Shown here one piece after another: positions 3,332 to 32,000 of a stretch of DNA of 64,000 nucleotides; the stretch's first letter is position 1, and the number at the start of each line of letters is the position of its first letter. The notes beneath the pieces were generated by a model. The model did no database searches. It was not told the DNA's origin and saw only the letters and a list, made by a program, of their open reading frames with translations. The translations under genes and the position numbers were made by a program. The DNA is from Bolinopsis microptera (taxonomy: Eukaryota; Ctenophora; Tentaculata; Lobata; Bolinopsidae). The stretch is from positions 2,893,096 to 2,957,095 of the forward strand of contig NC_087080.1 in assembly GCF_026151205.1 (NCBI RefSeq), in the 5' to 3' direction.

Positions 3332-4098
3332 CAGGGTGGGCCAAAAGTCAGTGTGCAAACGTTGGGTCTTATACCTCCGCCGTGTTTTATATTTGAGAGC
3401 TGTTGCTTTGCAGATGGCATACTGTACTTACTGGTTCGAGGATTCCGTCGTCAAAATTTGAAAATTCGAATATTTTAGACCACGCCCATTCAATATTAAA
3501 ACACCTATATTGTTTTCTCTGAACATGCTGAACGCCTAATTTTTTCAGAGACGGTAGATTATCAAATGTTGCATATGATCTGAAAACATGAGGCAAAACG
3601 GATTAGAAATGACGAAGTTATCAAGCATTTTGTGTATCTCGTTAACAAAATTGACTGGGTGATTATGTGACACCGTGACACGACACCTTAATTGGGCACC
3701 CTTAACAATTCCCATAATGTTTAACGGGGTAGTTAACGGGGTCACCTTATCACGTGATTAGGTAAACCAATCACCTGATCACACGTAATGAATAAACTCG
3801 TTATGCTTCATATCTCGGTCATCTGAGAAGCTACAGTTCTAATTTTTTCAGGACAAACGTAATTCGAATGGCCAAACACAATTCAATATAATTTAGCTTG
3901 ATCCGACTATCCAAACTATCAAATAAATGTGAAAATGAACCTCCATTTGAAAAAAATGAACGCGAATATTTTTCGAGTTGACAAATTCCTCGAACCAGTG
4001 GTGGTACTAAGTCATACCAGAAGAAAGTATTTCAATTGGGCACTCAGTGACTGAGCTATTAAGGCCAACGTTTGCACACTGACTTTTGGCCCACCCTG
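3332..4098. mobile_element. 767-bp non-autonomous TA-flanked DNA transposon (Tc1/mariner-like MITE), copy 1
   Basis: It is flanked by TA on both sides. Its terminal inverted repeats of about 34 bp begin CAGGGTGGGCCAAAAG and end with the exact complement. No transposase ORF is present. A second copy at 8485-12858 is the same length once its insertion is removed, and I find one base difference (T at 4037, C at 12797). The termini and TA target are typical of Tc1/mariner-class elements; the family assignment is inferred. The near-identity implies recent movement or gene conversion. Confidence 0.9.
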
Positions 4099-4100
4099 TA

Positions 4101-4625
4101 TATTGTGACGTTTGAGATATCTTGTTCGTAATGTTATCTATTTCATCATATTAATTTGTTTGCTGCCCATGTTTTAAACCAACCTGTTTTCTTATCACAT
4201 TCTGTACAATTAATCTATTCAATACAAAAGTGACAAATTTGAACAGAAACTTTAAGGAAGAATTAAAAGTGTGCGGAATTTAAGACATGGATCCGCCCCT
4301 GTCACTAAGTCTACATACTAAGTACTAAAATAGTAGTTGATATAATAAGTAATAATACTTAATGATAAGTTGAAATAGTACTGTTATTATCTAGTGGTAG
4401 CCTGGCGCGCCGTAGTACAGCTACAAAGTGACAAAATCAGTTGAACTTACTGAAGTCTGAGTGTGCCTTAACACCTCGTAATATCGTCGCTTATCAGTTA
4501 ATAAGTAGTTACTATTGATTTGTTTGGAGAGGCGAATCGCACACAGTTTAGGCTCTTGAAATCTTGCGAATAAAATATCATCTTTAGAGAACCTCCTCAA
4601 TAAATGTAATAGATTTGTAATTAGT
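4101..4625. other. AT-rich intergenic or intronic stretch, nothing recognised
   Basis: No ORF, RNA gene or repeat that I can support. It lies between the MITE and the 11-bp array and may hold the promoter or early exons of TRAPPC10, which I could not locate. Confidence 0.3.
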
Positions 4626-5108
4626 TTAAAATTAGTTACTAAGCAGTTACTAAGTAGTTACTTAGAAGTAGTTACTAAGTGGTTACTAAGTAGTAACTAA
4701 GTAGTTACTTAGAAGTAGTTACTAAGTAGTTACTGAGTAGTTACTAAGTGGTTACGAAGTGGTTACTGTTACAGTGTTGGTACAGATTCTGTGATTGTGT
4801 AACTTTAGGTCAGTGTTTAAGGCTCCCACGTTACTGGTGACTACATTATCAAGGATTTTTACAGAGTCTAAGTGGTTACTAAGTGGTTACTAAGTAGTTA
4901 CTACGTGGTTACTAAGTAGTTACTAAGTGGTTAATAAGTGGTTACTAAGTAGTTACTCAGTAGTTACTAAGTAGTTACCAAGTGGTTACTGAGTGATTAC
5001 TAAGTGGTTACTAAGTAGTTACTAAGTAGTTACTAAATAGTTACCAAGTGGTTACTAAGTGGTTACTGAGTGGTTACTAAGTGGTTACTAAGTGGTTACT
5101 AAGTAGTC
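4626..5108. repeat. 11-bp minisatellite ending just before a TRAPPC10 splice acceptor
   Basis: Imperfect tandem copies of GTTACTAAGTA/G in two blocks, 4626-4757 and 4862-5108, separated by about 100 bp of non-repeat sequence. Each unit contains TACTAAG, close to an intron branch-point consensus. The array stops about 22 bp upstream of the acceptor at 5130, so it forms the 3' end of the intron. Confidence 0.85.
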
Positions 5109-5130
5109 TAACAATATTTGGATATCTCAG

Positions 5131-8065
5131 GAACCACGTTAAAGAACAGCTAACCCTGTGGTTTGATAGACTCCAACAGTATAACTGTAACAACTTCCTT
5201 GTCGTCCACGCTACCTTTCAGGTTAAACACTTGTTAATTAATCTACATTTATTTTTATTGGATGATAATTGATAACTAGGTTATAGTACTCTCAAGATGC
5301 ACTTCATAAATTAGGGGAGACCAAGTAGTCGAATAAACTAAAAGCTGTTTCTTTTTTCAAATTTGATTCAGATGTTCCTAAGTCGAGGGGGGTTTCCAAA
5401 TGATAACGCTAGTGTAATTTTGACACAATAGCTATGTGTTAAACTGATAGTGATTACGGAGGGGGCCCCCGGGGGAGGGGGGGGGGGGTTAAAAATGGTC
5501 AAAAAATTGATAACGTAATAATATGTGAACGCCTCCTAAGTGATTAACTTATGATATTCACGGCGCAGGACAAAGCGGCCATACTCCACAAGTTTTCTGT
5601 AACCAGAACCTCCATGTCCGAACGAATAAGAAATGATTTTGGTTCTCAAAAAGCGGACAAAACGATCATGTTCAAAGCAGAGTCAAATAGCATCGCATCC
5701 TCGCAGGTAACGCGCAGTTTGATCAAAGTCGTCAAACGTTATTCAAAATTTTTGATTTTATGTGACATCTATGAGTCTATGTGAAACGCATTGTTAAAAT
5801 GGCAATTAAAACTGTCTTTAATATTGCATTCCATTTTTCTTCACGACGTTTTTCAAAACGGGACACGAAATGCTAATGATTTCAGTCGTGGCTGATAGCG
5901 GTGGGTAAAATCAGAGACTCTATCATCAAGTCAGTGACGATGAAATTAGCGGTGATGGAGAAAGGGGTTAACCAGATACGGGACACTCACGAGGTAATTT
6001 TCTTCTTTTGTTACACTCACGAGGTAAGCTGGTAACTTTCCTCTTTTGTTACTTATTTTCAAATAATTTGTTTAACTCGTTGGTTAATAATTATGATATA
6101 CTTTCTTAATGCAAGCAATAATTTATGAAGGTATGGCGATTTCAAGCGATATTTCTTATTATCTTAATCGATACAGCTTTTGGTACTGATAAGAAACGTG
6201 AAATAAATCGATTAAGATAATAAGAAATATCGCTTGTCATGTCAATATAAACGCGAATAAAATGACAAACTTTCCATTTAAATATTACTAAAAAACCAGA
6301 AATGATTAATCGTCATTAAAAATAATTTGGTTTCAACACTCATCAATCTTCATATACAATCATACCAGTTTGAAACCACTCCATACTGGGAATTGGGATG
6401 GATATCCCGCATTCAAAGCGAGCATATACTTCAATTTTGTGAAACCACTCTGAATAAATCAATTCATGATCAGTTTATGATCAGTCTATGATCAGGTTAT
6501 GATTCTACACTTCAACCTGAACCATTGTTGCTTTGAAAACATCGCTGCTCCCAGAATGTCCCTATGCTCTTGTTATAATGCTCCTCTATTACATGTGTGC
6601 GGTAAAGGTCGCCTAAATCGAACTCTTCTCCGCAAAATGTGCACTCAAAATTGTCTTTTCGTTTCTCCTTTTCTTGGCTTGACTTTGACTCCGCCACATC
6701 ATCTGAAGTCTCTAGTTCCGTAATAATTTCCTGAGGACCGCTTGTTTCGGAAGATAGCACTGCACACAGGTCCGAATAGGTTGTATTATATCCTGATGCT
6801 TTCCGCAATTCCTTGTTGTCTTGAAGCATAATGCTGTAATGATTTAGCATTTCTCCTGAAATGCTTTTTACATTCTCGGTATCCACCATAGTTTCTGGAT
6901 CGTCTATGAAGAAGGGGACAACACAAGTTTGCTCCTGAGAATAAATGTCATAAAAATCTCAAAACTCGTTTATAATTGTTTATCAATTTAGTTATCGATG
7001 ATAACTTAAAAGATCCAGGTATGATCTGCAGATGGTTAAAAAAGGAGTATGGAGGCTGAGGGCACTTTACTATCTTATAGTATCGAATATGTATTATTAC
7101 TTAAGTTGACTCTAACCTCAAATATCAGGCTTTTGTGTCTCTTGTTATCTTCTGCAATTGGATCAGGTGAAGTCATCGTGACTTTTTCATAAGATCCGTT
7201 GTCGTTTTTCATTCCCTGCCGTGAAGAGAGATTACTTACTTAAGGTTAACTAGCAGGACCCCGTCTAACCCTAAAATGGTGTCAAGACTCAAGAGACTAA
7301 AACAATTATTACCTATTTAATTCGCGTTTTTGACACCACTTGGGGTACCAAATTTTGGGCTCTAAAACTCCTATTTCTTGGCCAATTTTTTATTTTTTCA
7401 TGCTGATTTGGAGGCCATTAAAGCATTTGACCCAGTCAAAAAAGTTTCAGTTGTATATCTTTGACGGTTTTTGCAGAAATTGGCGTTAAAGTTGATGCCG
7501 TGGTGTCAGTAAAATGGCACAGATAAATATATATATATATATCGTCTCGCTTTATATTTAGTAAGATGATAGATTGCACCGTATTTTATCTTTGAAAACC
7601 TCTTCACCAAAACAGGTGTCCCACTTTTAGGAGGGGTATCGTGGCTAATATCTTTACTCATATCACTTATACTTTATCTCATATTATGTTCGTACCAAGT
7701 TCACCCCATACTTCTAAACTAAGTCACATCCACAGTCGGTAACACATTGCGAGTACATTGAAAATGAAAACATAAAAAACTCTCTGAATATAAACAACAT
7801 TTAAAAAAACTCACCTCTGAAATACTGGCCACGTCTCGCTTGAGATGTGTTACGTCCTGTAGTATCTGATGGAACTCTCTGTTTCCGTCCGCCTGTTTAA
7901 CCATGTTCATTGTTATGCGATCTTCTAACTTATGTTGCTTTTTCTGTTGCATGCCTGGTTATTGGCTAATAATCAACAAATTGTTCATTTAATTACACTA
8001 ACAATATCACGTGATTTGATACAAACTTTGAAAAATCACTATTTTACCTCCCACTTTTCTCAAAT

Positions 8066-8097
<32 letters not shown>

Positions 8098-11000
8098 CTA
8101 TATGATCATACAACATATTGCTATATTAATTGCAACTGCACTTAAATAAAAGTGGCATCAAATTGCTATTAAAACGTGTATTGTGATCGAACCTGAGCAC
8201 TAGAAATAAGAAAAGTAACAAACTAATATTGTACAACGCACAACTAAGGGTGGTCAATGTAATCATGTTGGAAGATAAGGAAAACAATATATTGTGTGGA
8301 GTGAGTCCTTAGGAATCCTTATATTTTCCAAGTTTTGCTTTCGCTTTTTTAATGCTTCCTATACAGTTTCAAAATAAATGTAGAACGAGTACAGTAACCG
8401 TCTCAATTATAGTATATTATGATATAAAATATACAGTGTAGTTTGGGTAGTGTTGTAGTAACTGAATGGCGCTGACTACAAATACAGGGTGGGCCAAAAG
8501 TCAGTGTGCAAACGTTGGGTCTTATACCTCCGCCGTGTTTTATATTTGAGAGCTGTTGCTTTGCAGATGGCATACTGTACTTACTGGTTCGAGGATTCCG
8601 TCGTCAAAATTTGAAAATTCGAATATTTTAGACCACGCCCATTCAATATTAAAACACCTATATTGTTTTCTCTGAACATGCTGAACGCCTAATTTTTTCA
8701 GAGACGGTAGATTATCAAATGTTGCATATGATCTGAAAACATGAGGCAAAACGGATTAGAAATGACGAAGTTATCAAGCATTTTGTGTATCTCGTTAACA
8801 AAATTGACTGGGTGATTATGAGTAGTATATGATGCATTTTTCAATAGCCATTTTGGGAAAAAGTGGGGCACACATAATGAAAGTAAGCATATTACGTAAT
8901 GTTACCGGCGGCGTCCTTGTAACTTGTGTGATATCATGTTCCATGTGGAAGCTATATTGGATGTAACTTGATTATTATGTCATGTTCATTGCTCACAGTA
9001 CTTTTGTGATCTTATCTTGTCTCGATCTTACCAGATTAGAGCGGGCCACAGTTAAGTTATAATGTGCCATTATTAATGATGGGTATTATTATTAATGACG
9101 GGTATTATTATTATTATTAATAATGGGTATTATTAATAATGACGGGTATTATTATCAATGACGGGTATTATTATTATTAATGACGGTATCATTATTATTA
9201 ATAATGACGGGTATTATTATTAATGACGGGTATTATTATTAATGACGGGTATTATTATCAATGACGGGTATTATTATTATTAATGACGGGTATTATTATT
9301 AATGACGGTATTATTAATAATGACGGGTATTATTATTAATGAATGGTATTATTATTATTAATGACGGGTATTATTATTATTAATGACGGGTATTATTATT
9401 AATGACGGTATTGTTAATAATGACGGGTATTTTTATAAATGACGGGTATTATTGTTAATGACGGGTATTATTATTATTAATGACGGGTATTATTATTTTA
9501 GTGACGGGTATTATTATTATTAATGACGGGTATTATTGTTAATGACGGGTATCATTATTAATGACGGGTATTATTATTATTAATGACGGTATCATTATTA
9601 TTAATAATGACGGGTATTATTATTAATGACGGGCATCATTATTAATGACGGTATTGTTAATAATGACGGGTATTATTGTTAATGACGGGTATTATTATTA
9701 TTAATGACGGGTATTATTATTATTAATGACGGGTATTATTGTACAAGTCACAAATAATAATAATAATAATAACCGTCACTAAAAATAATAATTCCCGTCA
9801 TTAACAATAATACCCGTCATTAATAATAATACCCGTCATTATTAACAATACCGTCATTAATAATAGTACCCGTCATTAATTATAATACCCGTCATTAATA
9901 ATAATACCCGTCATTAACAATAATACCCGTCATTAATAATAATAACCGTCACTAAAATAATAATACCCGTCATTAATAATAATAATACCCGTCATTAACA
10001 ATAATACCCGTCATTTATAAAAAATACCCGTCATTATTAACAATACCGTCATTAATAATAGGGTAATATTATTAATGACGGGTATCATTATTAATGACGG
10101 GTATTATTATTAATGACGGTATTGTTAATAATGACGGGTATTATTGTTAATGACGGGTATTATTATTTTTAGTGACGGGTATTATTATTATTATTATTTG
10201 TGACTTGTACAATAATACCCGCCATTAATAATAATAATACCCGTCATTTACAATAATACCCGTCATTATTAACAATACCCGTCATTATTAACAATACCGT
10301 CATTAATAATGATACCCGTCATTAATAATAATACCCGTCATTATTAATAATAATGATACCGTCATTAATAATAATAATACTCGTCATTTATAAAAATACC
10401 CGTCATTATTAACAATACCGTCATTATTAACAATACCGTCATTATTAACAATACCGTCATTAATAATAATACCCGTCATTAATAATAATAATACCCGTCA
10501 TTAATAATAATAATACCATTCATTAATAATAATACCTGTCATTAATAATAATACCCGTCATTAATAATAATATCCGTCATTAATAATAATATTCGTCATT
10601 AATAATAATACCCGTCTTAATAATAATACCCGTCATTGATAATAATACCCGTCATTATTAATAATACCGTCATTAATAATAATACCCGTCATTAATAATA
10701 ATAATACCCGTCATTAATAATAATACCCGTCATTAATAATAATACCCGTCATTATTAATAATAATGATACCGTCATTAATAATAATAATCCCGTCATTAA
10801 TAATGATACCCGTCTTAATAATAATACCCGTCATTGATAATAATACCCGTCATTATTAATAATACCCGTCATTATTAATAATACCCGTCATTATTAATAA
10901 TACCCATTATTAATAATAATCCCCGTCATTAATAATAATACCCGTCATTAATAATGGCACATTATAACTTAACTGTGGCCCGCTCTAATCTGGTAAGATC

Positions 11001-14000
11001 GAGACAAGATAAGATCACAAAAGTACTGTGAGCAATGAACATGACGTAATAATCAAGTTACATCCAATATAGCTTCCACATGGAACATGATATCACACAA
11101 GTTACAAGGACGCCGCCGGTAACATTACGTAATATGCTTACCTTACTCGGGAATATTATAGCGGGTTAATTTATGACTGGGAAAATTAATAACCGGGAAA
11201 AATATGGCGGAATTTCCCAAAACCCGCCAAATTATCCCGGTCATGTATTTACCGGTGGCCGACCTTTCAAGTTTTTTTTGAGAGGTCAACAAATTTTCAA
11301 CCGAAATTTCTGTTTTTGTTACTTGTTAAAGAAGTTATTTCAATTTACAGTTACTGATATTACTCAGAAATAGAAAAAAAGACACGTCTAGTATTTAAAG
11401 GAAAATAAATCTATAGCAATAATAAGTCAAATCTTCATTAAAGCGTATTCTCATTCTCATTATCGCTAATGTCCCCTCCATTATCATTATTGATATCCCC
11501 CTGCTGCTGCAGACCGTCAAATTCGAAGTTGTATTGTTGTCTTAACAAGACTTTCATTTTGTCCGCTAATGGGGCTACTGCTCTGAAGGTCAGCCGGACT
11601 CACCGGAGCTTAATTTCCTGCCCACCGCTTGGTATTGGGGAACGTCTTGGCTTTGCATCTTCAACTGCTCCAGTAATCAATCCACCGTGGACCATGAAAT
11701 AGTGGCACAGTTTACTCACTTCATGGGCAAGAAAAGTGAGAATCACGGTCCACCCTGAAATCTGATTTCTATAACCAAATTGTGATTTTTATAACGAAAT
11801 TATGGTAGCAACCGCCAATAAAGTTACAGCCCTCCATCCACTGCTTCAAAAGTCTTCTCTAGCACATATGAGACTTCAGGTAAAATATAATACTATAATA
11901 CCTCCGCCACTGAGTGCTGCGCGCTATAATTCCCGACAGCTTGCTGGAGGGAATTTGCGGGCACGAAGTTGCGGAGGTATTATATTTTATAATACGTTCC
12001 GGTTCCGATTGCAGAAGGGGTGTAATCCGATACGTGCGCATCATACAATATAGTGTCTAATATATAGAACGCCAGTGTTATTTGTTTTGAAACTTGCCGC
12101 CAGCCAGTCTGAGTCTGGGCTGATAATACCCTCGCTTCTCTTGCGGGAATAATGAGCAAATTATCAGCCCTCGGTGTCCCCGAGTTTTAGTGGATATAAT
12201 TCCCGGAAGGTATTATAATAATCACCACCCCCTTGGAACCCCATAATCTGAGTCGGCGGGTTTTTTTATGACTGGTAAAATTTTTGACCGGGAAAAATAT
12301 GGCGGAATCTTCCAAAACCCACCACTTTATCCCGGTTATAATAATCCCGAGTAAGGTACTTTCATTATGTGTGCCCCACTTTTTCCCAAAATGGCTATTG
12401 AAAAATGCATCATATACTACTATTATGTGACACCGTGACACGACACCTTAATTGGGCACCCTTAACAATTCCCATAATGTTTAACGGGGTAGTTAACGGG
12501 GTCACCTTATCACGTGATTAGGTAAACCAATCACCTGATCACACGTAATGAATAAACTCGTTATGCTTCATATCTCGGTCATCTGAGAAGCTACAGTTCT
12601 AATTTTTTCAGGACAAACGTAATTCGAATGGCCAAACACAATTCAATATAATTTAGCTTGATCCGACTATCCAAACTATCAAATAAATGTGAAAATGAAC
12701 CTCCATTTGAAAAAAATGAACGCGAATATTTTTCGAGTTGACAAATTCCTCGAACCAGTGGTGGTACTAAGTCATACCAGAAGAAAGTATTTCAATCGGG
12801 CACTCAGTGACTGAGCTATTAAGGCCAACGTTTGCACACTGACTTTTGGCCCACCCTGTATATTCTATAATATTGTGATTATTACTATTTTGGTGTAGCT
12901 GAGTCTAATTTATCACTTACAACAATGGATAAATACAGCAAACATAACAGCCGTTATTGATATTACCTCCCGAAAACTTATATTATAGATCCCAGCTTAC
13001 GAAGTCTGACCAAAAGTGTTTATTTTTAATAAATGATATCGTTTAGTTAGCAAGAACTAGTTTTTGCTTGGGCCAGCGTCCCGACTATGCTGCAGGGAAA
13101 TCTGTACCGAAAGGACCGTGGCCGAACGCTACACGAAAAGGAAATCGGCCCCTCGTTCCTAGCTTGCTAGGTTCGCCATATTGTTGTTGTTGTTGTAGTT
13201 AGCAAGAAAGGAACCATGAAAGCTTTTAAAAACGGAACAATGGTTTATTTTAAATATTAATGACATCAAAATATTGACACCTGCAAGATAAAGAAACTAC
13301 ACTGATTACAAGAAATAATGGTTGACAAGCAAAAAACGGAAACGTAGCTCTTCCTACGGAAACGTTCAGCTAATTTCCAGAGCCATGATTCCTGACCAAT
13401 TCAAATAATATAAAGTACACGTCATGCAAAGTGCTCAAAGTCCACATTGCATAGCCACACAGTATAGTGGTAGTTTTCCCAGATGTGAGTTAGTATACAG
13501 TAACCTCACTAGTATCCTGTGTTAATACTGAGGGGTACATGTGGTGTAATGTGGTGTAGTCTCCATGTACACCTGGTCTGAGGGCCCCTACGTTAATTGC
13601 TTTTCAGACTCTATAATGATGCTTTTCAGTGGGGAGGTCTCAATAGACAGTTAAAGAACACAATATAGAATATAGATTATATATATTTACTGTATAGATA
13701 TTAAATGTTTACTTTAAAGATGTTTTATACTGTATAGATGTTTACAATATTATACAATGTACAGTAAATGTTTCACAACTTTCGCTTTTGAAAATCTCAT
13801 GAATTGAGATTGGTTCAGGTATTAAAAAGTTAGTTCAAAATAAAAGAAATTAAATCGGGGCGTATGCAATAATAAGGCAGTCACTAAAATCAATAGAACT
13901 CCATCTGGTGGCATCTAAACTCGTTAATTACAACACCCATTATTACTGGATGGAGTATTTTGGCAGTCAACTTAAGAATAATTACTACTCCCACTGGCTG

Positions 14001-17000
14001 CCCTGCAGATTTGTTTAATAAACTTGCCGCATAGGATCATAATATATAATACTGGACGTCTATACAATGTGCATTTGTTGTGGGACACACGGCCCCCCCC
14101 CCCCCCCCCCCCCCCCCCGGGGACACACTCAACTAAGCGAGTAAGAAATGCCCTGCAGAATAAGTTAACACGGTCTTACCATTGGCTCTGAATCTAATTA
14201 ATTATTTATGTCTATTGTTTAATTAATTATGTCTAATTAATTGTGAATATCGGGCTCTATTCTAAATTAAATGTGTGTTAATGAACACAGCACGTTTTGG
14301 TATAGAGTAGATGCTACACTCTGCTCAGAGCTCACGTGCTCTACTAAACCTGAAAGACCCTTATCGGCGGAGTAGTGTATTGTTCAAATAAGTTAATGAC
14401 TAATAACATAAATGTTAGTACTCCTTAGCATAATGTGAATACTCTTATAACATAATTATAACAATTAACATAATGTAATAATAACATTACCCAGGAAGAA
14501 GATTTCAACTTATACAACTACATTTCTGCAAAAGAACAGCTCTGTCTACTATACGAACTCACAGGTAAAAGTCAAAAGTCCAGCAAATAATAATACAAAA
14601 GCCGATGAGTAACAATATATAACATTGAATAATGGTATCTATATATTTATAATCATAGGATTGTGGCATTATAATGTATAGCATTGTAGCACATATTATT
14701 ACATGTATTATTAGCAAATCCAATTAGTTACATGCCGATTGCAGATTATTAGAAGCAGACTATCAGAAGAAGAGGATTGCATTTCCGAGAATTTCCTTGA
14801 AAGATTATTTTTAAACCGCCTCCCGATTCACAATTTGAAAGGAAACATTACATAACAAGTTAAGTCATATCTATATCTCCTGAACCATCTCCGAGACGCT
14901 AACCCTAACCCCTGCCCCAGGTCTGTGCGAAGAAGCTAACCCTACCCCCTGCCCCAGGTCTGTACGAAGAAGCTAACCCTAACCCCTGCCCCAGGTCTGT
15001 ACGAAGAAGCTAACCCTAACCCCTGCCCCAGGTCTGTACGAAGAAGCTAACCCTAACCCCTGCCCCAGGTCTGTGCGAAGAAGCTAACCCTAACCCCTGT
15101 CCCAGGTCTGTACGAAGAAGTTAACCCTAACCCCTGCCCCAGGTCTGTGCGAAGAAGCTAACCCTAACCAGCTAACCCCTGCCCCAGGTCTGTACGAAGA
15201 AGTTAACCCTAACCCCTGCCCCAGGTCTGTGCGAAGAAGCTAACCCTAACCAGCTAACCCCTGCCCCAGGTCTGTACGAAGAAGCTAACCCTAACCCCTG
15301 CCCCAGGTCTGTACGAAGAAGCTAACCCTAACCCCTGCCCCAGGTCTGTACGAAGAAGCTAACCCTAACCCCCGCCCCAGGTCTGTACGAAGAAGCTAAC
15401 CCTAACCCCCGCCCCAGGTCTGTACGAAGAAGCTAACCGTAACCCCTGCCCAAGGTCTGTGCGAATAAGCTAACCTTAACCCCTGCCCCAGGTCTGTACG
15501 AAGAAGTTAACCCTAACCCCTGCCCCAGGTCTGTGCGAAGAAGCTAACCCTAACCCCTGCCCCAGGTCTGTACGAAGAAGCTAACCCTAACCCCTGCCCC
15601 AGGTCTGTACGAAGAAGCTAACCCAAACCCCTGCCCCAGGTCTGTGCGAAGAAGCTAACCCTAACCCCTGTCCCAGGTCTGTACGAAGAAGCTAACCCTA
15701 ACCTCTGCCCCAGGTCTGTACGAAGAAGCTAACCCTAACCCCTGCCCCAGGTCTGTACGAAGAAGTTAACCCTAACCCCTGCCCCAGGTCTGTGCGAAGA
15801 AGCTAACCCTAACCAGCTAACCCCTGCCCCAGGTCTGTACGAAGAAGCTAACCCTAACCCCTGCCCCAGGTCTGTACGAAGAAGCTAACCCTAACCCCTG
15901 CCCCAGGTCTGTACGAAGAAGCTAACCCTAACCCCCGCCCCAGGTCTGTACGAAGAAGCTAACCCTAACCCCTGCCCCAGGTCTGTACGAAGAAGCTAAC
16001 CCTAACCCCCGCCCCAGGTCTGTACGAAGAAGCTAACCCTAACCCCTGCTCCAGGTCTGTACGAAGAATCTAACCCTACCCCCTGCCCCAGGTCTGTACG
16101 AAGAAGCTAACCCTAACCCCTGCCCCTGGTCTGTACGAAGAAGCTAACCATAACCCCTGCTCCAGGTCTGTACGAAGAAGCTAACCCTAACCCCTGCCCC
16201 AGGTCTGTACGAAGAAGCTAACCCAAACCCCTGCCCCAGGTCTGTACGAAGAAGCTAACCCTAACCCCTGCCCCAGGTCTGTACGAAGAAGCTAACCCTA
16301 ACCCCTGCCCCAGGTCTGTACGAAGAAGCTAACCCTAACCCCTGCCCCAGGTCTGTGCGAAGAAGCTAACCCTAACCCCTGCCCCAGGTCTGTACGAAGA
16401 AGCTAACCTTAACCCCTGCCCCAGGTCTGTACGAAGAAGCTAACCCAAACCCCTGCCCCAGGTCTGTACGAAGAAGCTAACCCTAACCCCTGCTCCAGGT
16501 CTGTACGAAGAAGCTAACCCTAACCCCTGCCCCAGGTCTGTACGAAGAAGGTAACCATAACCCCTGCCCCAGGTCTGTACGAAGAAGCGTACCGAAGCAG
16601 CGAAGAAGTCCTCTCCCTTTTCCGACAGTACGTCTCTAATCTGAGACAATGTCAGATAGCACCCTGGATAGAGGAGTTCATTGAGAGGGATATATCCTCC
16701 TGGGCTGGGCTGTGTCTCAATGATGATGTGAGCGTCAAGGACCTGGCCTTGCAGCAATTCAACTCTCTGCAGCTCTGCTCCCTTATATTTAGACGGTTGG
16801 TTTACTGTTCAGTTGGTACGTTTTGTGGACGAAGTTGTGAGTGTCATGTTAGAGGAATTTTAGAGGAATTTCGGTACATTTTAGGGGAATTTCGGTACAT
16901 TTTATGGTAGTTGTTGGAGTAAGATGATCCCTAATTATAATAAGTGCACTATATAATTGCTGTACTGAGTAAGTCAATAACGTAGGTCAGGTTTCAACAG

Positions 17001-20000
17001 ACTCTTTTTACTACACACACTTATAACTTAACGATGATAAACACTGTTGCGGGCTTAGCTCTAACTTTTCAAACTTTTAAACTCTAAATGTTGAGAAAAG
17101 ATCTGTTTTATATCTGCTATTACTGGTGGTTACTGGTACTCCCGCAGGATAGCACATCAACTCTCTGCACTTCAAAACCCACGAGATCTCGCGAAGAAGG
17201 GGCTCAACTTTCTCCTGCAAACTGTTCAAGAATGTAAACTTCTCAAGGTGAAAACATACCCACTCAACATTTTACTTACCACTGCTCAAAATTTAAATCA
17301 TTGACGTTTGCCAACAATTTCCATGTAATGGCAAAAGATATAGTTTAAAGGATTTGATAAAAAATAGGCTCTTGAAGGTGCAGTACTCAATTTAACACAC
17401 TTAATCAAATATGTACCTAGTTTAACGTTCCAATAACCCCATTACCTCTGGTCCCCCAATAACCCAGTTACCTCTCCCAATAACCCAGTTAACTCCCCCA
17501 ATAACCCAGTTACCTCCCCCAATAACCCATTTACCTCCCCCAGTAACCCAGTTACCTCCCCCAGTAACCCAGTTACCTCCCCCAGTCACCCAGTTACCTC
17601 CCCCAATAACCCAGTTACCTCCCCCAATAACCCAGTTACCTCCCCAATAACCCAGTTACCTCTCCCAATAACCCAGTTACCTCCCCCAGTAACCCAGTTA
17701 CCTCCCCCAGTCCAAGTACCCCGAAGGAGCACTGGTAGTGTGGGTTTATATCGGATGTATTGAGCTACTTGAGGCTGTAAAGAAGAGTTCACCCCTCAAC
17801 AACATGGTAGGTTTAAGAGTAGGATTATTTAACGACTTTTTTTGTTGATACCTGTTAATAATAAAACTATTAAAAGGCTATGTGATTTGTCAGGAAATGT
17901 AGCAGTTTTATGCCTTTATATTACTATGACTAAATAATTTGTGAGACAGACGAAGAACTACATGAACTGTAATAAAATAAAATAAAGCAGCCTCATTGAA
18001 AATAAAAACTCGCATATAAATATAATAAACGAGTTGGCCATAGAAAGAAGAAACTTTGTATCTGGAAGGAAATTTTTGTATGTGGTCAAGTTGGTAACAA
18101 TAACAAAGTTAATCATATACACAAATAGATGTCTCATAGAAGAAGATTGGGCCAATCGCCAAAGGAACGTACGGTCTGCCGTCTGGGGTTAACAAATAAC
18201 GATGGCGCACTGTATATTACACATTATATTGTATCATGGGCACGTATCACATTACACATCTTCCAATATTTTAATGTTTGCCAGACCGGAACCGAGCTTT
18301 TGTTTTCTAAGCTAAAGTTGTTTCGGAGAACATTAAGCCATATTAAGGCACTTTGTAAGTAGTGTAGGCTCTCTGTAAGTAGTGTAGGCACTCTCTAAGC
18401 TTACAAACGTTGTCAAATTTCAAAAACTTGTCGATTACAACGAAACTCGCAATTACAACGAAACTCTAGTGGAGATTGATTATATTTTAGTATGTTAATT
18501 AATGCAATATATGTAATAGGGGCTACCAAGTCCCTACGACATTAACACATAACATGCGTGCAAGTTCAGACAAAAATAACATACAGGATGGGCCAGAAGA
18601 GACTGCCCACACGCAACCCTTAAATACCTTGAAATTTACCTAATTTAAGTAGGTTCAGAATTACACAAACATTTCAGAGGTTACAGGTATGGGTAAAAGT
18701 TAATGAAATATATAGGATTTCTTATTACATTACTAGAAAGCCCGTGATCACAGGGAGGAAGGTAATAGTATTCTTTGGTAGTCAGTTTTCATAATTATAG
18801 CATCAAAAAATATCCGTCACAACCGAGTATACAGCCCATTAAAATGTTGCTTGCACTGAAGTCTGAACACAACGTAATTACCACAAAACCGATCAAAATG
18901 ACGTTAAAACAATCATTGTACGTACGTACGTTTCAACCGCGTTACCATAGGTTACTATGCAACTACCTATTTCTCATCTAGTTTGTACGTGGGCGGTAGT
19001 GCAAACAAAAACAATTCTTTGAATTATAAGTAAGATAAACAAATTACACACAGGTTTGCTATTGCTGGGAGACTGCCAACCCCCTCTAGCCAGCATATGT
19101 AATAAGTGCAGAGTTGCTGGTCCATAAGGACCTTATCACATACGTACGTCTTAATCACATACGTACTTACCAGAAGAAACTGCCCACATACAACCATCTA
19201 ATAACTCGCATGATTGTGATCAGAATTACACAGAAATTTGAAAGGTTACAGATATGAGTCAAAGTGAGGTTCCCAAAAATTGTCGTAAAATTTTTCAATC
19301 GAAGCTGATTTGGCATTCCCTCTTTTTGTATAACCCTGGAATTGCTCACATTAGTCAGAATTGCACAAATTCTACGGAAATCGTGATATGGTTTTAAGTT
19401 AGGTTTCCAGAAAATGTTATCACCCAGGACCCCTAATATATATAATTGTATATTCAAATTCTCAGTTAACGTCTGTAATATTATATATTGGGAACCGACG
19501 GCGTAGGACACGAGGGTGAAGGGACGATCACATGACTCACTTAATCATGGAACCATACACCGTCCTTGGGTCCTTCACCCTCGTGACCTCTACCCTCGTG
19601 ACTTCCGCCATAGTGTCATCATATACCCTTAACTTAATATCATAATATGCTAGAACACCCCGTAGATTTACATGATCACCTCATCAAGAAGACACGGTAT
19701 TCTAGGATCGCTAATTGATACTCATATCACCTGTTCATTTACATGATCACCTTATCAAGAAGACTCACGTCACTTTACACAGCATAAACTGGTTACATGA
19801 TTGATAGAGAACGACTCATTAACATGATCACCTTATCATGAAGACAAGGTATTCTAGGATCGCTAATTGATACTCACGTCACTTTACACATCCAATCTTA
19901 GCATAAACTAGGCTATTAACTGGTCACATGATTGATAAAGAACGACGTAATTAGCCCCAATTAGAGAAGCTCAAGTTATATATAACTGACCCCATCCAGT

Positions 20001-23000
20001 ATTTCCATTCTATACCCCACCAGTTTTGTTACAAATTTTGAGTAGGTTTATCTCCTCCAGCACTTACTGTGCCGAATTTACATTATCATCACTGAGATTG
20101 CAGTTTAGTTTCTTTCGACATTTTGTGTCCAATACCTATTTCTATGTAAAATCCGGACTGGAATATTATTTATGAGTCGTATAGTTGAAATGTTTTCTTG
20201 GGTAAATTTCTATTGATCCCGTTTGATATTTTTAGATCATGAATACGATGGTGTCACATTGAAACGTTGAATAATTCCTTTCCTGATAAGAGCCTTTTCC
20301 TTGTCGCATCAAACGGGAAATTTACCCAAGAAAACACCTATTTCTATGTTCTATATCACTTACAGCGGTTAAAACTTCATTATTTGAATAAATTGTCGCC
20401 AGTTTTACATTTCCTAAGATTCAACTCGAAAACGTTAGTTCTTACTTACTGTCGTCCTGAAAGTGAGTTTTTCCTTGTTTCGTTCTCTGAAGCTACGGTA
20501 CCACTCCTCATCAGGTCTCAGATTTATAACAGGTGTGGGTGGGCGGTGATTTTTAACATACTCCTCAATTAAATCCAAGGTTTGCTCCTGTCCCATGTGA
20601 CAGCCAAGGTCGTTGTAGTACTGCAACAGTAGAACAATGTAATGCTCCTCCGCGTCTGATGGATGGAAAGTCTTCTGGACGAGCCTTCCTCTCAGTCGAC
20701 TGTATAAAGTTGATTTTTTGACGGCAAAATACTTGCTTGCATGGAGAACTGTCATACGACTTGATAAAACTTCTTCCACAGCTTTCTTTAGGCCATCTTT
20801 ATCGACAGGGGGCTTCTTTAATTCGTAGTCTTTCGGCATAGTTACAATCTTCTAACTAGCTTTAGAGGAAGAATATTTAATGTAAACAATCACTCGTGAA
20901 ATAGTTGTTTCTGCAGAAAACTTGAATGTTTTCACTAACGGGGCCGGGGTACAGAACAAAGAGAGAAAAATAACTAATAAGACAAAAAGCACTTAGATAA
21001 GGACCATAGATCATGATGCGTTGAATTTGATTTCAAAACTAAACTAATTTTCTCCCCCAATCACATACAATTCTAGTAGATAGGTAGATCACATACCACT
21101 ATAAACACAAATTGTAATCTATGTTATTTTATATGGTGAGCATTAGCTGACTTCTAAAATGAAATCTCCAGGTCAGTAATGGTGATATGCAGCTGCAGTC
21201 ACCCGACGATAAACGGGTGTACAATCTAAAGGTGGGAAAGGTTGATGGTAGTCATGTACACTTGAAAACGACGTAACTCGAGGATGGTCGCCTTTGATGT
21301 GAATACATGACTACCATCAATCGTGACCTATTATACATATATTGTATAATCATATTAATGACGTACGGCGGTGTAAGGCACAGACATATTGCATACGAAA
21401 CGACACACACTCTTTACCACCCCGCTGCTATGCGACAAAGATATTGTATAAAATATAACTAAATAATTTACACAATACGGTACCCATGTCTGAGCGGCTC
21501 TCCTCAAAAACTTTATCTTCTCATCGAGGCAAAAAGTTTAAAAAACACGGGTCTCATAAAATCAAAAAATACATATATAAGTCCGGAATCGCACTATTGA
21601 CCTAAAAATACACTTCGCAAATCGCATCCCCACAACAGATTGGACTTAAGTCACTTTAGTCGCCTATACACAATCTTATATTGTTAAGTTATAGAGTATA
21701 GCATTGAATCTTATAATTATTGTAAAACCTTCTATGAGGATAATTCTAGATTTATACATTCTGAATTGTCATGAACCGCAGTATAATACACGTAGTAAGT
21801 CACTTGGCATAAGTGAATGTGGCATACTGTATTCAGGGAAGTAGTTTTTACAGATTTTTGATAAAACGGAGTTGTGTTATTCACCTCCCCCACCTATTAA
21901 TTGTTTCACCCCCCCCCCCCAACTATTAATTGTCACACCCCCCTCAACTTTTAATTGTCTTACCCCCCCCCCTCAACTTTTAATTGTCTCACCCCCCCCA
22001 ACTATTAATTGTTTCACACCCCCCCCCCCAACTATTAATTGTCACCCCCCCCCCCCCCCAACTATTAATTGTTTCACCTCCCCCCCAACTATTAATTGTC
22101 ACCCCCCAACTATTAATTGTCTCGCCCCCCCCCCCCCCCCCCTCAACTTTAATTGTCTCGACCCCCCCCCCCCCCCCAACTATTAATTGTTTCACCCCCC
22201 CCCCCCCCCCCAACTAATTGTCACACCCCCCCTCAACTTTAATTGTCTCACCCCCGGCCCCCCCCCCCCCCCAACTATTAATTGTCTCGCCCCCCCCCCC
22301 CCCCCCCCCCTCAACTTTTAATTGTCTCACCCCCCCCCCCCCCCCAACTATTAATTGTTCACCCCCCCCCCCCCCCCCCCAACTATTAATTGTCACCCCC
22401 CCCCCAACTATTAATTGTTTCCCACAGGACGTGCCAGAACCACTAGCAGTAGCAAAGGGACAGTTGTACAACCTAGCAAGAGAGAAGCTGTACCAGCTGG
22501 GAGTCCTGGTGGGTCATGTGGGGACTGAGACCCCACTTTCAGAGAGTGACATTGAGAATCTCTTGGCTGGTACGTGTCTTTTTTGCTAATCTAATTTTAC
22601 AGCTACACAGTAAAATTAGCTTAGCATTGGTTACCAACAAGTCAATGACATAGCTATACGTATCCTTTCTCCGTACACAAGCTTGTGGCGCTGTTCCGAC
22701 AGGCACCACGGGTTTTAGCATGTAGCATTCTTTTACTTACTTTTAAAATTCTACAGGCTATCTATAAATATGATAATAGTGATAATATACCATGTTCAAT
22801 GTTCAATACATTTCGGCCCATTTTATATGTTTGTTTGCTGTACATTTGTATATTTGTTATTTTGTGAAAGTTTCAAATCAAATCAATCATTTGAATTAAC
22901 CCGCCCCCCAGGAGCGAAGAGAAGTGGTAACAGGCGCGGAAGTAGTGCGGAGACCAGACCCTCCTTTCCCAGCCCCGGCTCCAGCATCACCTCTGATCTC

Positions 23001-26000
23001 CAGAAGATTCTCACTGACAAATCATTTTTCCACAAACAGTATATCGACCTGTGTCAACTCTCCATCGTATCGTTTAAACAGGGTTCCTGGACCCACCACG
23101 CTCAGCTCATCATGATGCGACAAGCTCTCTACTTGAGACATAGGGGTGAGTTGTGGGGGTTTTTATATATACACAATTTGTTGGAATATTGTAAAGTTAT
23201 AATATTGAATGCTATGCCCCGCTGCCTCTTTTATGCTCATTTTGCCCATCTAATTGTAAAACATTCTATGAGGGTAATCCTTTATATTTATACATCTTGA
23301 ATTAATAAATAAACATCTTGAAATAATAAATAAACCAATAACCACATTAAATTCATTCAATATGTTGGAATCTTTTGTTGTAAAGTTATAATTACAATAT
23401 TGAACACTCTTTTTCAAATATGCTCGTCACCAGCTAGTTCATACATCTTGAATTGTTAGGAAACTCAGCGTAAAACATTACGCAAGATTCATTGTAAATT
23501 AATTGTCGTGTTAAGGCAACGTTATATACTACACTATCGAATAAACCAACCTGAGAGCACTTAACCAAATTTGGCAAATTGTTCAGCTTAATTGCGGTGT
23601 TTTTTGTCTCTAAATTTGCCACACATTTTGGGCAGGTGTGGAATCGCACTATTTGAAAAATATTACTACACACTACATGTTACCTCAGTACTTTACCCAT
23701 AAATTAATAACAACATAAATTAAATTCGCAAGTCAAACTCTGTGAAAACAACTCTTTTTCACGCAGGTATACAAGCTGAATGCCTAAACGCAGAGACCCA
23801 CCTCAGAGATGTTTGCCACGCTTACTACACGCAGGGATGGCACAAGCTGGCTGCTTACTCCAGAGTTAAACTATGTGATACTCAACGTCATCTCGGTTAG
23901 ATATTTTATATGGTTTTATTTTGAACTTGAAGCTTCTCTTTACATTTTCTATTGTTTTTATCTGGCCGGTGTGCCATTCTGGGTCTCGCTTTGTGTCTTG
24001 TAGCCAACGTCACCAATAAGTTGAATCAGATGACATTATCAGACCAGTGCTTGCTTCACGTCAGTATAAACAACGTACTCAGACATCACAACACCACAGT
24101 CGATATTATCGCATTCCAGACGAAAAATGTGGCGGATCACATATCGGCACGTAAGAGATCGCGTGTCAAGACGTCACAATCGCATACCCAGCGACATCCG
24201 ACTCTGCTGGGTCATTGGAGCTGGTCTCCAGTCTTGTGACCATAACGTATCGGATGTGTCTGACAAGCATTCCAGACTAGACGTGGTGCTTGTCAGCCGC
24301 AGTTACCAGTATAAAAGGTGGAAAACACAGATAGCAGAATATCATTTCTCAAACTCTCATTCCACTAACAGAACAACTAGCAAACAACCACAATGCAGAC
24401 TACCAGCAAGCCATTCTTCCTCCCTGGAATGTACCAGTATCTGGGAAGTGGTCCTGAACCTCAGTTCTACACCTCTCCTCTTCCCTCTCCTCCACTGTCT
24501 ACTGGTTCTCCTTCCTCCTGCACTGTCGGTGATCTCAGCGAGGACTTTTCGAGCGGGTACGACATGGTGCCTTCTCTCCAGCCTCTCATGGACATGAAGA
24601 TGAGCAATCTCTATAACCTTCCCTTGGGACAGCTTATGTCTTCCCTCTCTCGTCCTACACCCGACAACAACATCTCTGTCAGATTAGCTGGAACCCGTTC
24701 TGAGAAGACACCATCTTGGGAACAACATCTCCCTGGACTGCCTACTTTCGGAGAACTTCCTCTAGTTCCCGATCTCTCTCTTTTGTCGGACCTACCCGAC
24801 CTAGCCACCCTCCCTGGTCTGTCTTCACTAATACCCACTCCTTACATGTCAGCATCAATGTTACCCTGCTCCGCTGATTCTATGGTCCCTAACGTGAACT
24901 GCTCAGCGTTCTCGTCTACCTCCATTTCGCCCTGTCCATCACCACCTCCCTGCAGCAGTCCCTCCACCAAACCTCTGTCCTTCACCCAGTCCCACTACTC
25001 TCTTCCCTCACACACCCAGTCCAGAGCCGGACCCCTGAAATCTGACCGAAGGAACAGAACCAAGTTCACTGCCGAACAGCTGGAGTACCTGGAGTTGGAG
25101 TATCATAAGTTGGAGTTCGCGGTGGCAGACAGAAAGATGGAGATAGCTAAAGAGACCGGGGTACCTCCCAGGACTATTGCCTTGTGGTTCCAGAACAGAC
25201 GAGCTAAGGACCGACGGGATCAGATGAAGCGTGCTCAGAACTACAGTGGCGAATTGTAGTGGAGATTCAGTTGTTTTTGTTTGTCGTATGTGTATAGTTT
25301 TGGTAAACGTAAAGGTAATTTTTTTAATAGTAATAATTTAAGTAATAATTTAATCTTTAAGTAATAATTTAATTTTAATAATACCAGACAATATTTAAAT
25401 GTTTTTTGTATTAAGAATCTGTGATAGCGATAAATTCTATTATTTTTAACTTGCTTGATCTGAAAACCCGCTTATTTAATTTCGCTAGTCCATGACTATT
25501 GATCAATAATCAGTATTTATAAACATATTATGACTTCTTTATCAAATGCCATTTCTAACAATTCAAGTTCGTCCCACAAATTTTAAAAATTTGTCCCTTC
25601 GTCTACAAATTCCATTTCCAATTGTGCTATCAATTACAATGTAGTCTGAGGTCAGCGAAACACCAACTTGTAGTGATCATTAATCAACTGTCTCAATCAG
25701 CTCATATTCAGATTACATTCACACATATAGTTGAACAGCACGAGATAAGTGGCAAACAAACTAATTGACTTCAAGTTCGTCGTTTGGGATCGGAATAATA
25801 GATTGATAACCGACCATTTCGGGTCCGGCAGCCAACCCCAGACCGATCGGTTCCTAGTCCCGGCTATTCTAACCCACGTGATCTGCCTAACTTTCCTCAT
25901 TTATTCTCACTAGTAGCAATGTCTGATATTATCTTTGGAATATAGAAATATTTTTAAGTCTCCTATCCACACCACGTTCTTTATTCAGAACTGCTGGAAC

Positions 26001-29000
26001 GAGAACTAGTGACATGCTGTCATCTGAGCTCAGAACAGGACCATATCACTCAAACAGACAGACAAAGATACAGTGAGCGTTTGATGGAATGTGTGGAGAA
26101 GTTTAATGGAACTCAAAGAGAGGATCAAATTCTAGTTCCTTTCAACCCCCTCTTCCAGGTCGGTTTCTTATCTCTAGTTACTGAATGAAAATACTTTTGG
26201 TTAAACTAAAGCTTCAATAGTTTGTTCAATTCAAGAATGGATGAAGGCACTATGCTTATTTTTACGCTTGGGATAGCACAACTAACAATGATCATCTGTT
26301 TGCAGTACGAATTACTAAGTGATGACAATGAGGCGTGTATCGTGGCATTTGAAGATATAATCAGAGTAAAAAACAAGATCCTGATTAAAATGAAAGTTCA
26401 CAACTGCTCCACTGAGCCGATACCCAACGCTGTGGTTAGTTTTACTATATTTTCAGTTTTTCGCTTAATCTGGTGCTTTATCACTCCAGATGGTTTTCGA
26501 ACCATATTCGGTGTTATCACTACTCACTAGAATAAAGTAAAAGCAGTACATCAACTTATGTAATATTAAATAATATTATTGGTTCAAGACAAGTAGAAAA
26601 CCCACTGTATAATCATACAGGTAAGTATGAAGCTAGATACTGGTAAAGAGACGCTGAACAGAAGTAGATCCCAGATATCTGCAGATATCAACGACTTCTC
26701 AATGGTTCCTATTGAGAGCAACTCTTCAGATCTAGATGATGGACTGTACGGTATATCCCTGAAAGCCGAGACGGAGCTTATGAACGATGACTCGGAGAGA
26801 AGTGAAACAAGATATACAATGATTCTCTCTTCTGATCTTACCGAGCTAAAGCCAGGTCAGTATTGTAGTGCAGATATACAATGATACTCTCTTCTGACCT
26901 TACTGAGCTAAAGCCAGGTCAGTATTGTAGTGCAGATATACAATGATACTCTCTTCTGACCTTACTGAGCTAAAGCCAGGTCAGTATTGTAGTGCAGATA
27001 TACAATGATACTCTCTTCTGATCTTACCGAGCTAAAGCCAGGTCGGTATTGTAGTGCATGAAGTTACTCGACACCAGAGGCAATATATAAGTGCGGTGCG
27101 CAATCACAGTATTGATCTCACACTGCAATTTTTTGCACCCTCGGCCGCTATTCTTTCTATCAGATTAGTGCACTTTCTGACACTGTAGTGTGGATGGTTT
27201 TATCCGATTTTTGTAGATTTTTATGGAGGTTTTTTTTTTTAAATAAATAATTTAAAGAGAGGCTGGGCCTGGTTGGCCCACGAGAGGATAGCATATGAAT
27301 GCTTTGCCTACCTCTGGGGTATGGCAGTCCTGTGGGAGGATGCCAGTGGAATCAAGATGTGTAATCAAGGATGATGGTAAGTGTTGTGGGGTGTGTCATA
27401 GATAAACGCTTAAGTGGTGGTTGAGTGTGGATTTTATGGAGGTTGTATCATTGTAAAACGTACATTGTGACAGTCTAGATGGCGAAATATTTTTGAAAAT
27501 GGTTCTAACACAGCTTTGAGAATAACAATTACATTGGGTGAATAGATTAGGTGAACAATTACTATGATGCAGGCAATTATCTGCGCTGATCCAGCATTCT
27601 GCATATGTAAGTAGAGTAGTTTAATTGCTGATTCATACTTAATAGTTAATGGTGACTCGATAGAAGTCATGTTTTGCACCCTGAGCAAAATTTATTGTAG
27701 TTGTACAACAAATATGATCAATAACGCTAATTTTTCCTTATTGGACTTTATTTTTACGGACATAAGTTAAAAGTTGCAGATGCCAGATGCTACAAGTTAA
27801 GCCCTAGAGTTCATTTTAATGTCCTTTCATTTTAATATCCGTTCGCATTTTGGCGAACGTTTTGAATTGTAAGTAAATAGACCATTGAGCAGTCGCGTTT
27901 ATTTTAATGTCCGCTCAAAATTATGCCCGTTCATATTATTTCCGGTGGCGCTAGGATAAAATAACACCCGAAAAGCTATCCGATAAGCTCAGGCGGAGCT
28001 TTCGGACTGTAAGACTGAACAACTTGAAACGTTGAAGAACGCCGTTAAGACATTTGTTGTTGACTCACTTAAAACACAAACGTACCGTTCAATCGTGAAG
28101 AATTCACGGCCAACTGAGTAAGTCATCAGCTCAGAAACGCTTAAAAGCGTAGTAAAACGTGTTGTTGAGGAACCAGATATCAGTCGCAACGTCATTGTAT
28201 TTGGTCTTTCAGAAGGGAGCGATAGCGAACTCATTGACACAGTTAGCGAGATTTTCCAAAATATTGGACAGAAACAGAAGATCGTTGAAGCGTACAGAAT
28301 TGCCAGGAAATCTAAGGACAATTCAGTTACAGCATCATTGATAAATGAGCTTACGTTATTCGCTTAAGTTATTGCAAAATGGTCATTGATTCCAATAAAT
28401 ATAAAATAAACTCCGCTGTGCCGTGCGCTTATTTACTAATTCTGTACTCGCCTGCGTACACTGTACAGCAGGAGCAGGCCTGCAGGCATCGTGCTACATG
28501 CGATTTTACAAAAAATGTTCGACTTCAAGTTAGACTTTCAGTTGTTGTACTGTAATTCTGTATTCGTATTGAAACGTGCTTACTTGCAATGATGTTGATG
28601 TAGTAACGTCACTGAGAGCAGGAGTGATGTGATAAACTTGCACAGGGGCTTCAACTTCAAGTTTCTTCTTGGGTAGGACAACAAAAGGTTCATTTAGACT
28701 GTCGGTGAACTTGTCCATCGTAGACTGTGCCGTCAAAGCTGAGAGAGCTCGAAGTTTTATATTGATGATTCTGATTTTCCTGTAATAGTTTCAAATTACA
28801 AACAGCGTAACCAATTTGACAAGAAATATAAAGTTTAAACACAAAATATTAAGTAGTATATATTATATATAGAACAAATAATGAATATCAGTCACGATTG
28901 GCAATTATCCACATCGGACATGATCGCTAAACAGAAACTGATTAGATATTAACAAATCGGAAAAATCACTTGGATATGAAGTTTATGAACGGATAGTATG

Positions 29001-32000
29001 TACGTATATTGACACCAAATATGAAAACATAAAAATATGCAACTTACCCAGTAATAGTAGGTGAAATTCTACGAACTTCGGACTTTTCTGTGACATCGTA
29101 CAAAGCAAGCAGGTCGACAGCAACAGGACGGTAGAACTCAACAATCGAAAGTTTTTTCTTCCTACCAGTGTTAGCTTCTTCGACGAGAAAGAGTAAATGT
29201 GATAAAACATGACGTAGCAGAGTTGGACGACAAGTCACAAGAGAATTGAAACGATCTGGTTTAACAAAATCTTCAAGTTTCATGGTGGGCTCAAAAGTTC
29301 ATAAAACTGGTGTTATTGATGCAGATGGCGTTGTTTTATTTATAGTTATATATTTATTGAATATTGAGGCTAATTGTGCATGGGAATTGTGAAGCAAAGA
29401 TATTGGGCACATCAAACGATTTTTTTGCAGGGCATTGGAACTTCGGTAACATTAATTTAGTTACCTTGAACAATGTATTAAAAGTGTCTATTGATCAAAT
29501 TAACATCATGAGTTATGTCGTTTAATAAGCTTAGGGGCTATTAAGGTCCAAATTGTTACGAAGCTAATTGTTCGATCAACCGCAAGTTACATGATTATAA
29601 CAGTTTAACACCCCGTCATGGGTGGGTAGCACTAGCACCAATTTGTCACTAAATGGCAATTCCAGAAAAAATGAATCCATGGGTTCTAATTATTATTAAT
29701 AGTATTAGTATCATAGGTAAATTCTCGTGCTTACTCATTACACAAGAAGAATTTATAGCGTGATGAATGCAGATTAGCATATAAAATTCACATGGCATGA
29801 CCCAATTCATGATAATATTATGTTAGTATGATTCATTACCTTGGGACCTCAGCTTTAAATTGCAGTATTTTGGCATCCCCCTGCATGTTCCAACAGGAAA
29901 ATAGCTATTCAATCAGTCAGAGTAGAATGTAGATACTGCGATCTCTGATATATATACAAACATAGCCCGAGCTGCGACTGTTCACCACTACAATTAGTAC
30001 ATGATAGTTAAGTGTCATCAAACAAATGATACGACGTATTCCAGGGTGATCTGCTGAAGACTCAACTAGTTTCGGCCTTTGAGGGCCATCCACAGGAGTG
30101 TCACCTCAAATTATTTGTTATATAGTAGTGTTATGTTGAAAGTATTCCGGGGCGATTGTGGCTACAAAACTCGATATTGGCTTGTTTTTTCCACCTCAAC
30201 GTCAGCGAAAGCTCTAACGATTAGTACATACTACATACCTCAATACACATTACGGCCGGTTTATATTACCATGACCCATGCGATCCTGAGGGCTATAATT
30301 AGTGAAAGGTGTTATCACGTGATCTCCGTCACATGACTTCTATCGAGTCACCATTAAGTATGAATCAGCAATTAAACTACTGCAATTACATATGCAGAAT
30401 GCTGGATCAGCGCAGATAATTGCCTGCATCATAGTAATTGTTCACCTAATCTATTCACCCAATGTTATTGGTTTTCACAAAGCTGTGTTAGGACCATTTT
30501 CAAAAATATTTTGCCATCTAGACTGTCACAATGTACGTTTTACAATGGTACAACCTCCATAAAAATCTACAAAAATCGGATAAAACCATCCACACTGCTG
30601 TCAGTTGTGTACAATGAGATAAGATTGACAAGCTGACAACTATGGTTAAGGTCTAACGTTTTTGTGAGGTAACTTTAACAACATCGGAAAGAAAGAATTG
30701 CCTTGAATTCCTGATAAAGATCAGGAAAAACACATTTATAGAACAATGTTCTTCTAAAAACTGTTCTCAAAAAGTTCGCACTGACACCTTTATGTTGTCT
30801 CTGCTCGAGACCTAACCATTAAAAGAATCTAAGCAGACTAAGCACCTTAACCACATAAAATATGTATATTATTTTACCTACTCCTTTTTAGAGTTAAAAC
30901 TATAGGTCCTCGGCATTTCGACAGCTATCGAATTGCTATGATTTATTATTACTATTTAATATACAACATGAAACGGGTATATAACTAAAAAGCATTCGCA
31001 CATCAGGAAGTAACAACGTATCTATGTCCGTCCTGCCGTCCCACGCAGGTCTCTACGGAGTCTCCAGTCTCCAGATCCAGGTGGGCTGTGTTATCTTCAG
31101 ACTGAAGTCCCCGGTGGTGCCCTCCTGGCTGGAGGCGGTGGAGGTGGACATGGAAGCGTCTGGGGTGAGTGTAGAGGTGGTTCAGCCAGCTGCTGGGGTC
31201 TGGTTATCTGATAAACAACAGGTTAGAATTACTCTCTTTCCAACTCGGTCAACAGGTTCAACCTGCTGCTGGGGTCTGGTTATCTGATAAACAACAGGTT
31301 AGAAACTTTCTTTCCGCCTCGGTTCATCCTTTAAGCCGTAGTACATTTATATTACATTACACTGGAGCTTACGCAGTCAACACAGTGTAATTTCATCCAG
31401 TATGCGCCGCGTACGGCTACATAGGCGCGCGGCGCAGACTGGAGGAAATTACAGCTCGATTCAGTGTAATGTAATATGTATGTCCTACGGCTTAAATTTA
31501 ATACACAATTTTAAACTCTCTTTGTTGTGATACATTATTTTTCTTTGTGGTTGTGTTGGAAGTTTCACTGTGTATACCTAGTATTCCTTATTTTTCATAT
31601 AGGCTGACGTTTAAAACCTCCCAGTTCTGTACTCTAGCTATCAATACTGACAAAGCTAACGTTTAAAAACCTCCCAGTTCTGTACTCTAGCTATCAATAC
31701 TGACAAAGCTAACGTTTAAAAACCTCCCAGTTCTGCACTCTAGCTATCAATACTGACAAAGCCTTCCACTCGTTGAGTATCAGTATCAAAACTGCGACTG
31801 CTGGACTGGATCTAATCCCTGTGGAAAATGGAACATACTCTATAGAGGTATGATTGTGATAACGTTAATCCAGTGCCTCTACGTACTTGTTTGCATTTAT
31901 CAGTGTGAACTTGAATATTGAATAAAAGTCTACGGATTTCCCTATTGAGTGTCTACAAGTTCTGTATTTAACGATCTAATCTATCTTTTTCAATTCAGGG

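Follow-up and report, generated by a model that had tools for sequence, protein, structure and literature searches.

The repeats that run across splice junctions in the TRAPPC10 gene of Bolinopsis microptera are on balance best read as boundary minisatellites of the "mirage" kind, duplicated in place. Under this explanation, a short stretch crossing a resident splice site would have been tandemly duplicated where it stood, then expanded and homogenised, presumably via slippage or unequal exchange. New copies would land in the intron while the exon-proximal copy stays functional, and we infer from the sequence that this copy is the one used. The other copies are strong decoys whose use would introduce premature stops, yet the expansion would be tolerated, since what is added lies in the intron and the exon-proximal site still functions.

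The window analysed here, the whole stretch of 64,000 nucleotides, occupies positions 2893096-2957095 in an assembly of 264.65 Mb and 232 contigs. TRAPPC10 lies on the + strand and was modelled with 17 exons, all of whose joins are in phase and whose reading frame is open. The model matches the Pfam families PF23036 (TRAPPC10_1st, E=1.4e-29) and PF12584 (E=1e-9), both above cut-offs, and a sequence search of solved structures returned no match. The single homologue found, TRAPPC10 of Lycorma delicatula (29% over 444 aligned columns), aligns across the junctions at 5993/14495, 16573, 17711 and 22428; those at 26855, 31221 and 31731 are placed by frame, phase and splice signals only. The first modelled exon spans 5131-5221 (+ strand, gene model), and the modelling found no exons 5' of 5131. 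The last exon shows an apparent 1-bp frameshift at an A-run at about 32079, which may be an assembly error or real. Intron 24151-25988 of TRAPPC10 contains an entire homeobox gene (PF00046, E 3.5e-15) at 24393-25260, which has the same orientation as TRAPPC10.

The original prediction described repeats at eight TRAPPC10 boundaries in seven introns, with exon bases in the unit at five of them and with arrays of unrelated sequence. All eight are present as described, the count of five is right, and the arrays are unrelated to one another. At three of the five boundaries, TRF reports an array on the + strand that spans the border. The longest consists of 45 copies of a 37 bp unit (14894-16588), the last of which forms the acceptor at 16573 and extends over 16 exon bases, the first 16 of the exon at 16573-16795 (+ strand, model plus homologue alignment). 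Each part of a 3' splice region is represented in this unit: a branchpoint-like CTAAC, the pyrimidine-rich CCCCTGCCCCAG and the exon start GTCTGTACGAAGAAG. A 62 bp array of four copies (26810-27058) includes the donor at 26855 with 46 exon bases and supplies three more donor copies, and a 53 bp array of three copies (31603-31762) ends in a copy that forms the acceptor at 31731 with 32 exon bases. The other two borders, also on the + strand, are spanned by two-copy duplications with one extra copy each, downstream. One, of 30 bp, lies within 5886-6035, which comprises the exon 5886-5993, its donor and the second donor copy; the other, within 31175-31300 (limits approximate), pairs the donor at 31221 with a second copy at 31297, 76 bp on. 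Neither was listed by TRF down to a score of 30, and the border 24-mer agrees with its copy at 17/24 positions at donor 5993 and at 20/24 at donor 31221. The 37 bp unit also contains CTAACCCTAACCCC, which is similar to two telomere repeats, probably by chance.

The remaining three arrays, again on the + strand, end short of their borders and do not span them. Closest is the 21 bp array reported by TRF (12 copies, 17452-17709), which stops 1 bp short, reaching the AG of the acceptor at 17711. A poly-C array of AACTATTAATTGT units, 25-54 bp long (21880-22418), ends 9 bp before the acceptor at 22428; no AG was seen in its units, and its tail (22371-22418) scores 96. Both are merely adjacent to the junction, as is the 11 bp array (21.5 copies by TRF, 4868-5104), which lies 26 bp upstream of the acceptor at 5131.

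A possible, if unlikely, alternative is that chance and the choice of the most striking window account for the pattern, one gene in a repeat-rich genome having gathered several arrays at its borders. TRF arrays (period at least 7) cover 1.6-18.6% of five sampled segments, as this explanation would have it. Against it, strong TRF clusters (score at least 100) within 30 bp of a TRAPPC10 border number 5/7 versus 0.52 expected (P 5e-5), a post hoc value for which both the cut-off and the gene were picked after the fact. The genome amounts to 4135 windows of 64 kb, so a P of 5e-5 is expected 0.2 times, which again favours chance. Of the two strong clusters off borders, one comprises the 19 bp arrays in a transposon and the other is the bulk of the poly-C array, which lies 121 bp from its acceptor; the poly-C tail falls under the cut-off. 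Chance also draws support from a second measure, in which the border-centred 24-mer is copied (at least 20/24, within 500 bp) at just 4/33 TRAPPC10 borders versus 4.6% of 2927 random noncoding positions. By this measure the TRAPPC10 excess is weak.

Beyond TRAPPC10, our general test covered the window plus 250 kb of genome, about 300 kb being obtained in total, with one 40 kb transposon-rich segment (C7) excluded from the counts. The exon caller recovers 14/15 internal TRAPPC10 exons exactly, those exons also being in its training. Per border there is no excess outside TRAPPC10: arrays scoring at least 50 lie within 50 bp of 5/101 acceptors and 4/102 donors. The combined 9/203 called borders compare with 485/5409 (9.0%) random noncoding positions that have an array within 50 bp, so that called borders carry fewer arrays than random ones (two-sided P 0.02); this absence of an excess speaks for chance. 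Copies of the border 24-mer outside TRAPPC10 likewise show no excess (10/314 borders, mostly of exons called inside arrays). A first border test (score at least 100, within 30 bp; 14/51 versus 5.3) was discarded, having included TRAPPC10 and exons called inside arrays.

Counting by array rather than by border gives a different picture, one that weighs against chance. Among independent intronic arrays scoring at least 150, 4/9 are found no more than 50 bp from an intron end versus 0.8 expected (P 0.005) in a test that was not blind, having been run after the gelsolin and ABC genes had been viewed. The corresponding counts are 5/12 versus 2.2 at a score of at least 100 (P 0.02) and 8/27 versus 4.9 at a score of at least 50 (P 0.07), the inputs being 75 called introns, with transposon filters set by hand and as many as 12 ABC-transporter exons listed by hand. 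An earlier run without the gelsolin and ABC introns placed 2/6 arrays (score at least 100) at borders, with 1.5 expected. The myosin genes, taken as 200-bp windows beside long introns, point the same way: an array lies within 50 bp of 4/15 acceptors and 0/17 donors, compared with 79/1204 random noncoding windows. This gives P 0.014 for acceptors, 0.16 for acceptors and donors together, and 0.051 for acceptors when the distance is tightened to 30 bp (3/15), in a set in which one acceptor (L061) was placed by eye and several acceptor calls are weak. Window L040 was excluded from the myosin set, as it has an upstream exon, with its donor directly followed by a 48 bp array of two copies. The myosin-gene intron that begins at this donor, about 100 bp long, consists nearly entirely of the two 48 bp copies.

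General enrichment of arrays at intron ends in this genome is suggestive, not shown, and the tendency of intronic arrays to sit near the ends of introns has the same suggestive standing. The original prediction had judged so many arrays at borders hard to put down to chance, and this is supported inside TRAPPC10 and, weakly, by arrays in other introns, but an enrichment per border is not seen outside TRAPPC10. A wider proposition, which we regard as doubtful, is that minisatellites in this lineage arise preferentially at splice junctions, chiefly at 3' modules made up of branchpoint, pyrimidine tract, AG and exon start. Genes would then carry dozens of full-strength decoys, with the exon-proximal copy alone being used, and the 37 bp ladder, each unit of which restores a donor-like CAG/GT, might be removed step by step through recursive splicing. 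If the intron-end preference were true genome-wide, it would suggest a source of minisatellites tied to splicing or transcription.

What the extra splice-site copies would do can be read from the reading frame. The 37 bp array keeps CAG in 42/44 units and CTAAC in 43/44, and 43/45 of its copies have acceptor scores of at least 11.0, the true site scoring 12.6. Use of an upstream acceptor copy would nonetheless lead to an early stop in every case (44/44 for the 37 bp array, whose last copy alone is open, and 2/2 for the 53 bp array), as would use of any CCCAG site upstream in the 21 bp array (15/15). Among extra donors, 4/5 would give a premature stop, namely 3/3 in the 62 bp array and the 76 bp copy; the 30 bp copy (6023) stays in frame and would add 10 residues. 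These outcomes contradict the suggestion that repeats persist where redundancy of the splice site safeguards the mRNA. With nearly all decoys breaking the frame, that idea is unsupported, and the gene would need its exon-proximal site to win. The 45-fold ladder of near-identical acceptors in a conserved gene offers a natural test of 3' site choice by the spliceosome.

The same decoys bear on the idea that selection retains additional modules of the 3' splice site (branchpoint, pyrimidine tract and AG) because they aid splicing of long introns, which we consider improbable. Retention of AG and CTAAC across the 37 bp units is what it would predict, as is the restriction of the myosin arrays to acceptors. 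Yet every position of the 37 bp unit is similarly conserved, as recent copying alone would yield; splicing to the decoy AGs would end in premature stops; and three of the TRAPPC10 borders concerned are donors. A further point cited in its favour is orientation. The branchpoint-like core CTAA occurs in the sense strand of 7/12 acceptor arrays and the antisense strand of 0/12, versus 7/90 strands of 45 other arrays, in a count of arrays that we collected, two of them by eye, and whose twelve acceptor arrays include the dispersed 11 bp one. Copying of resident 3' splice regions would produce this sense bias as well.

Searches of the whole genome (264.65 Mb) speak to where the arrays came from. 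The 37, 62 and 53 bp arrays match their own locus alone, in a DNA search that skips very common words, so that the lack of another match is not proof of uniqueness. The lack of matches elsewhere is strong evidence, if not complete, that these three arrays were probably made where they stand. For the 21 bp array, weaker relatives occur at other genome loci. The 11 bp array belongs to a family spread over many contigs and both strands, with at least 70 matches counting its own locus (from 40 scored among 88 candidates); judged by these matches, it is a dispersed satellite beside the acceptor at 5131 and no mirage. Insertion of mobile satellites or transposons beside exons, for which that family speaks, is a highly improbable and, on sequence grounds, largely refuted origin for the junction-spanning arrays, given that the 37, 53 and 62 bp units hold exon sequence and match nothing else.

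Boundary minisatellites have a precedent in amphioxus. Two papers (PMC3087553, PMC3902484) describe mirages in the globins BflGb6 and BflGb9, Adh3, TnC and PGBD5 as minisatellite-like tandem duplications over intron-exon boundaries, both 5' and 3', with units of tens of bases and splice signals in most copies. The TRAPPC10 junction-spanning arrays are alike in anatomy and, as far as anatomy defines the class, belong to it. They differ from the amphioxus cases as described there in copy number, which reaches 45, and in affecting as many as eight boundaries of a single gene, and they are known here from the DNA of one assembly. Boundary minisatellites as such were already known; in TRAPPC10 they are unusually concentrated, and the ladder of decoy acceptors is exceptionally long. 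A broader literature search for tandem repeats at splice sites found nothing on point.

The minisatellite of the human 6-16 gene (IFI6/G1P3) likewise consists of repeated donors arranged in tandem at the end of an exon. Several of its copies are reportedly used, in contrast to TRAPPC10, where the extra donors mostly break the frame. Tandem duplications carrying splice signals connect TRAPPC10 to intron gain as well, which is described for Drosophila (PMC2891723) and potato (PMC4974935) through tandem duplication of proto-splice sites. Creation or sliding of introns from duplicated borders, one of the causes the original prediction had offered, is a published model (PMC2891723). The Drosophila and potato accounts concern new introns, whereas in TRAPPC10 introns already present grow and nothing demonstrates a new one; the TRAPPC10 ladder is a natural test of whether tandem junction duplication feeds intron evolution. 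A last possible parallel lies in the ratchet points of recursive splicing, as outlined in PMC8605326, where an acceptor is immediately followed by a donor. The 37 bp unit reads CAG/GTCTGT, an acceptor followed at once by a donor-like GTCTGT, with a donor score of 7.8 versus 6.2-10.6 for real TRAPPC10 donors under a matrix partly trained on those donors. Speculatively, a wrong choice of 37 bp acceptor could be respliced in the manner of such points. TRAPPC10 is unlike the ratchet points of that account in forming a ladder of 37 bp steps, and it is known from sequence alone.

Several other elements were seen in the window and in the additional segments. In a gelsolin gene, a 32 bp array of 10 copies (L011:4637-4996) ends 10 bp before an acceptor and matches its own locus only; each unit carries TTACTAAG plus AATACAG. 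A 2.4 kb array with units of 9-60 bp (L010:2862-5241) was called coding at the end of a gelsolin-like gene, and could be either a repetitive protein or an artefact of the exon caller. In an ABC transporter gene (L023:9176-9240, L024:542-1184, L024:1820-2385), strong arrays stand 26 and 32 bp ahead of two acceptors, and another begins 3 bp past a donor; the last, of 15 bp units, matches its own locus only. Within the window, an element found whole at 3329-4104 recurs at 8482-12864, where it is split by an insert at 8821-12421. The insert has 65 bp perfect terminal inverted repeats and contains two long arrays of 19 bp units that are oppositely oriented.
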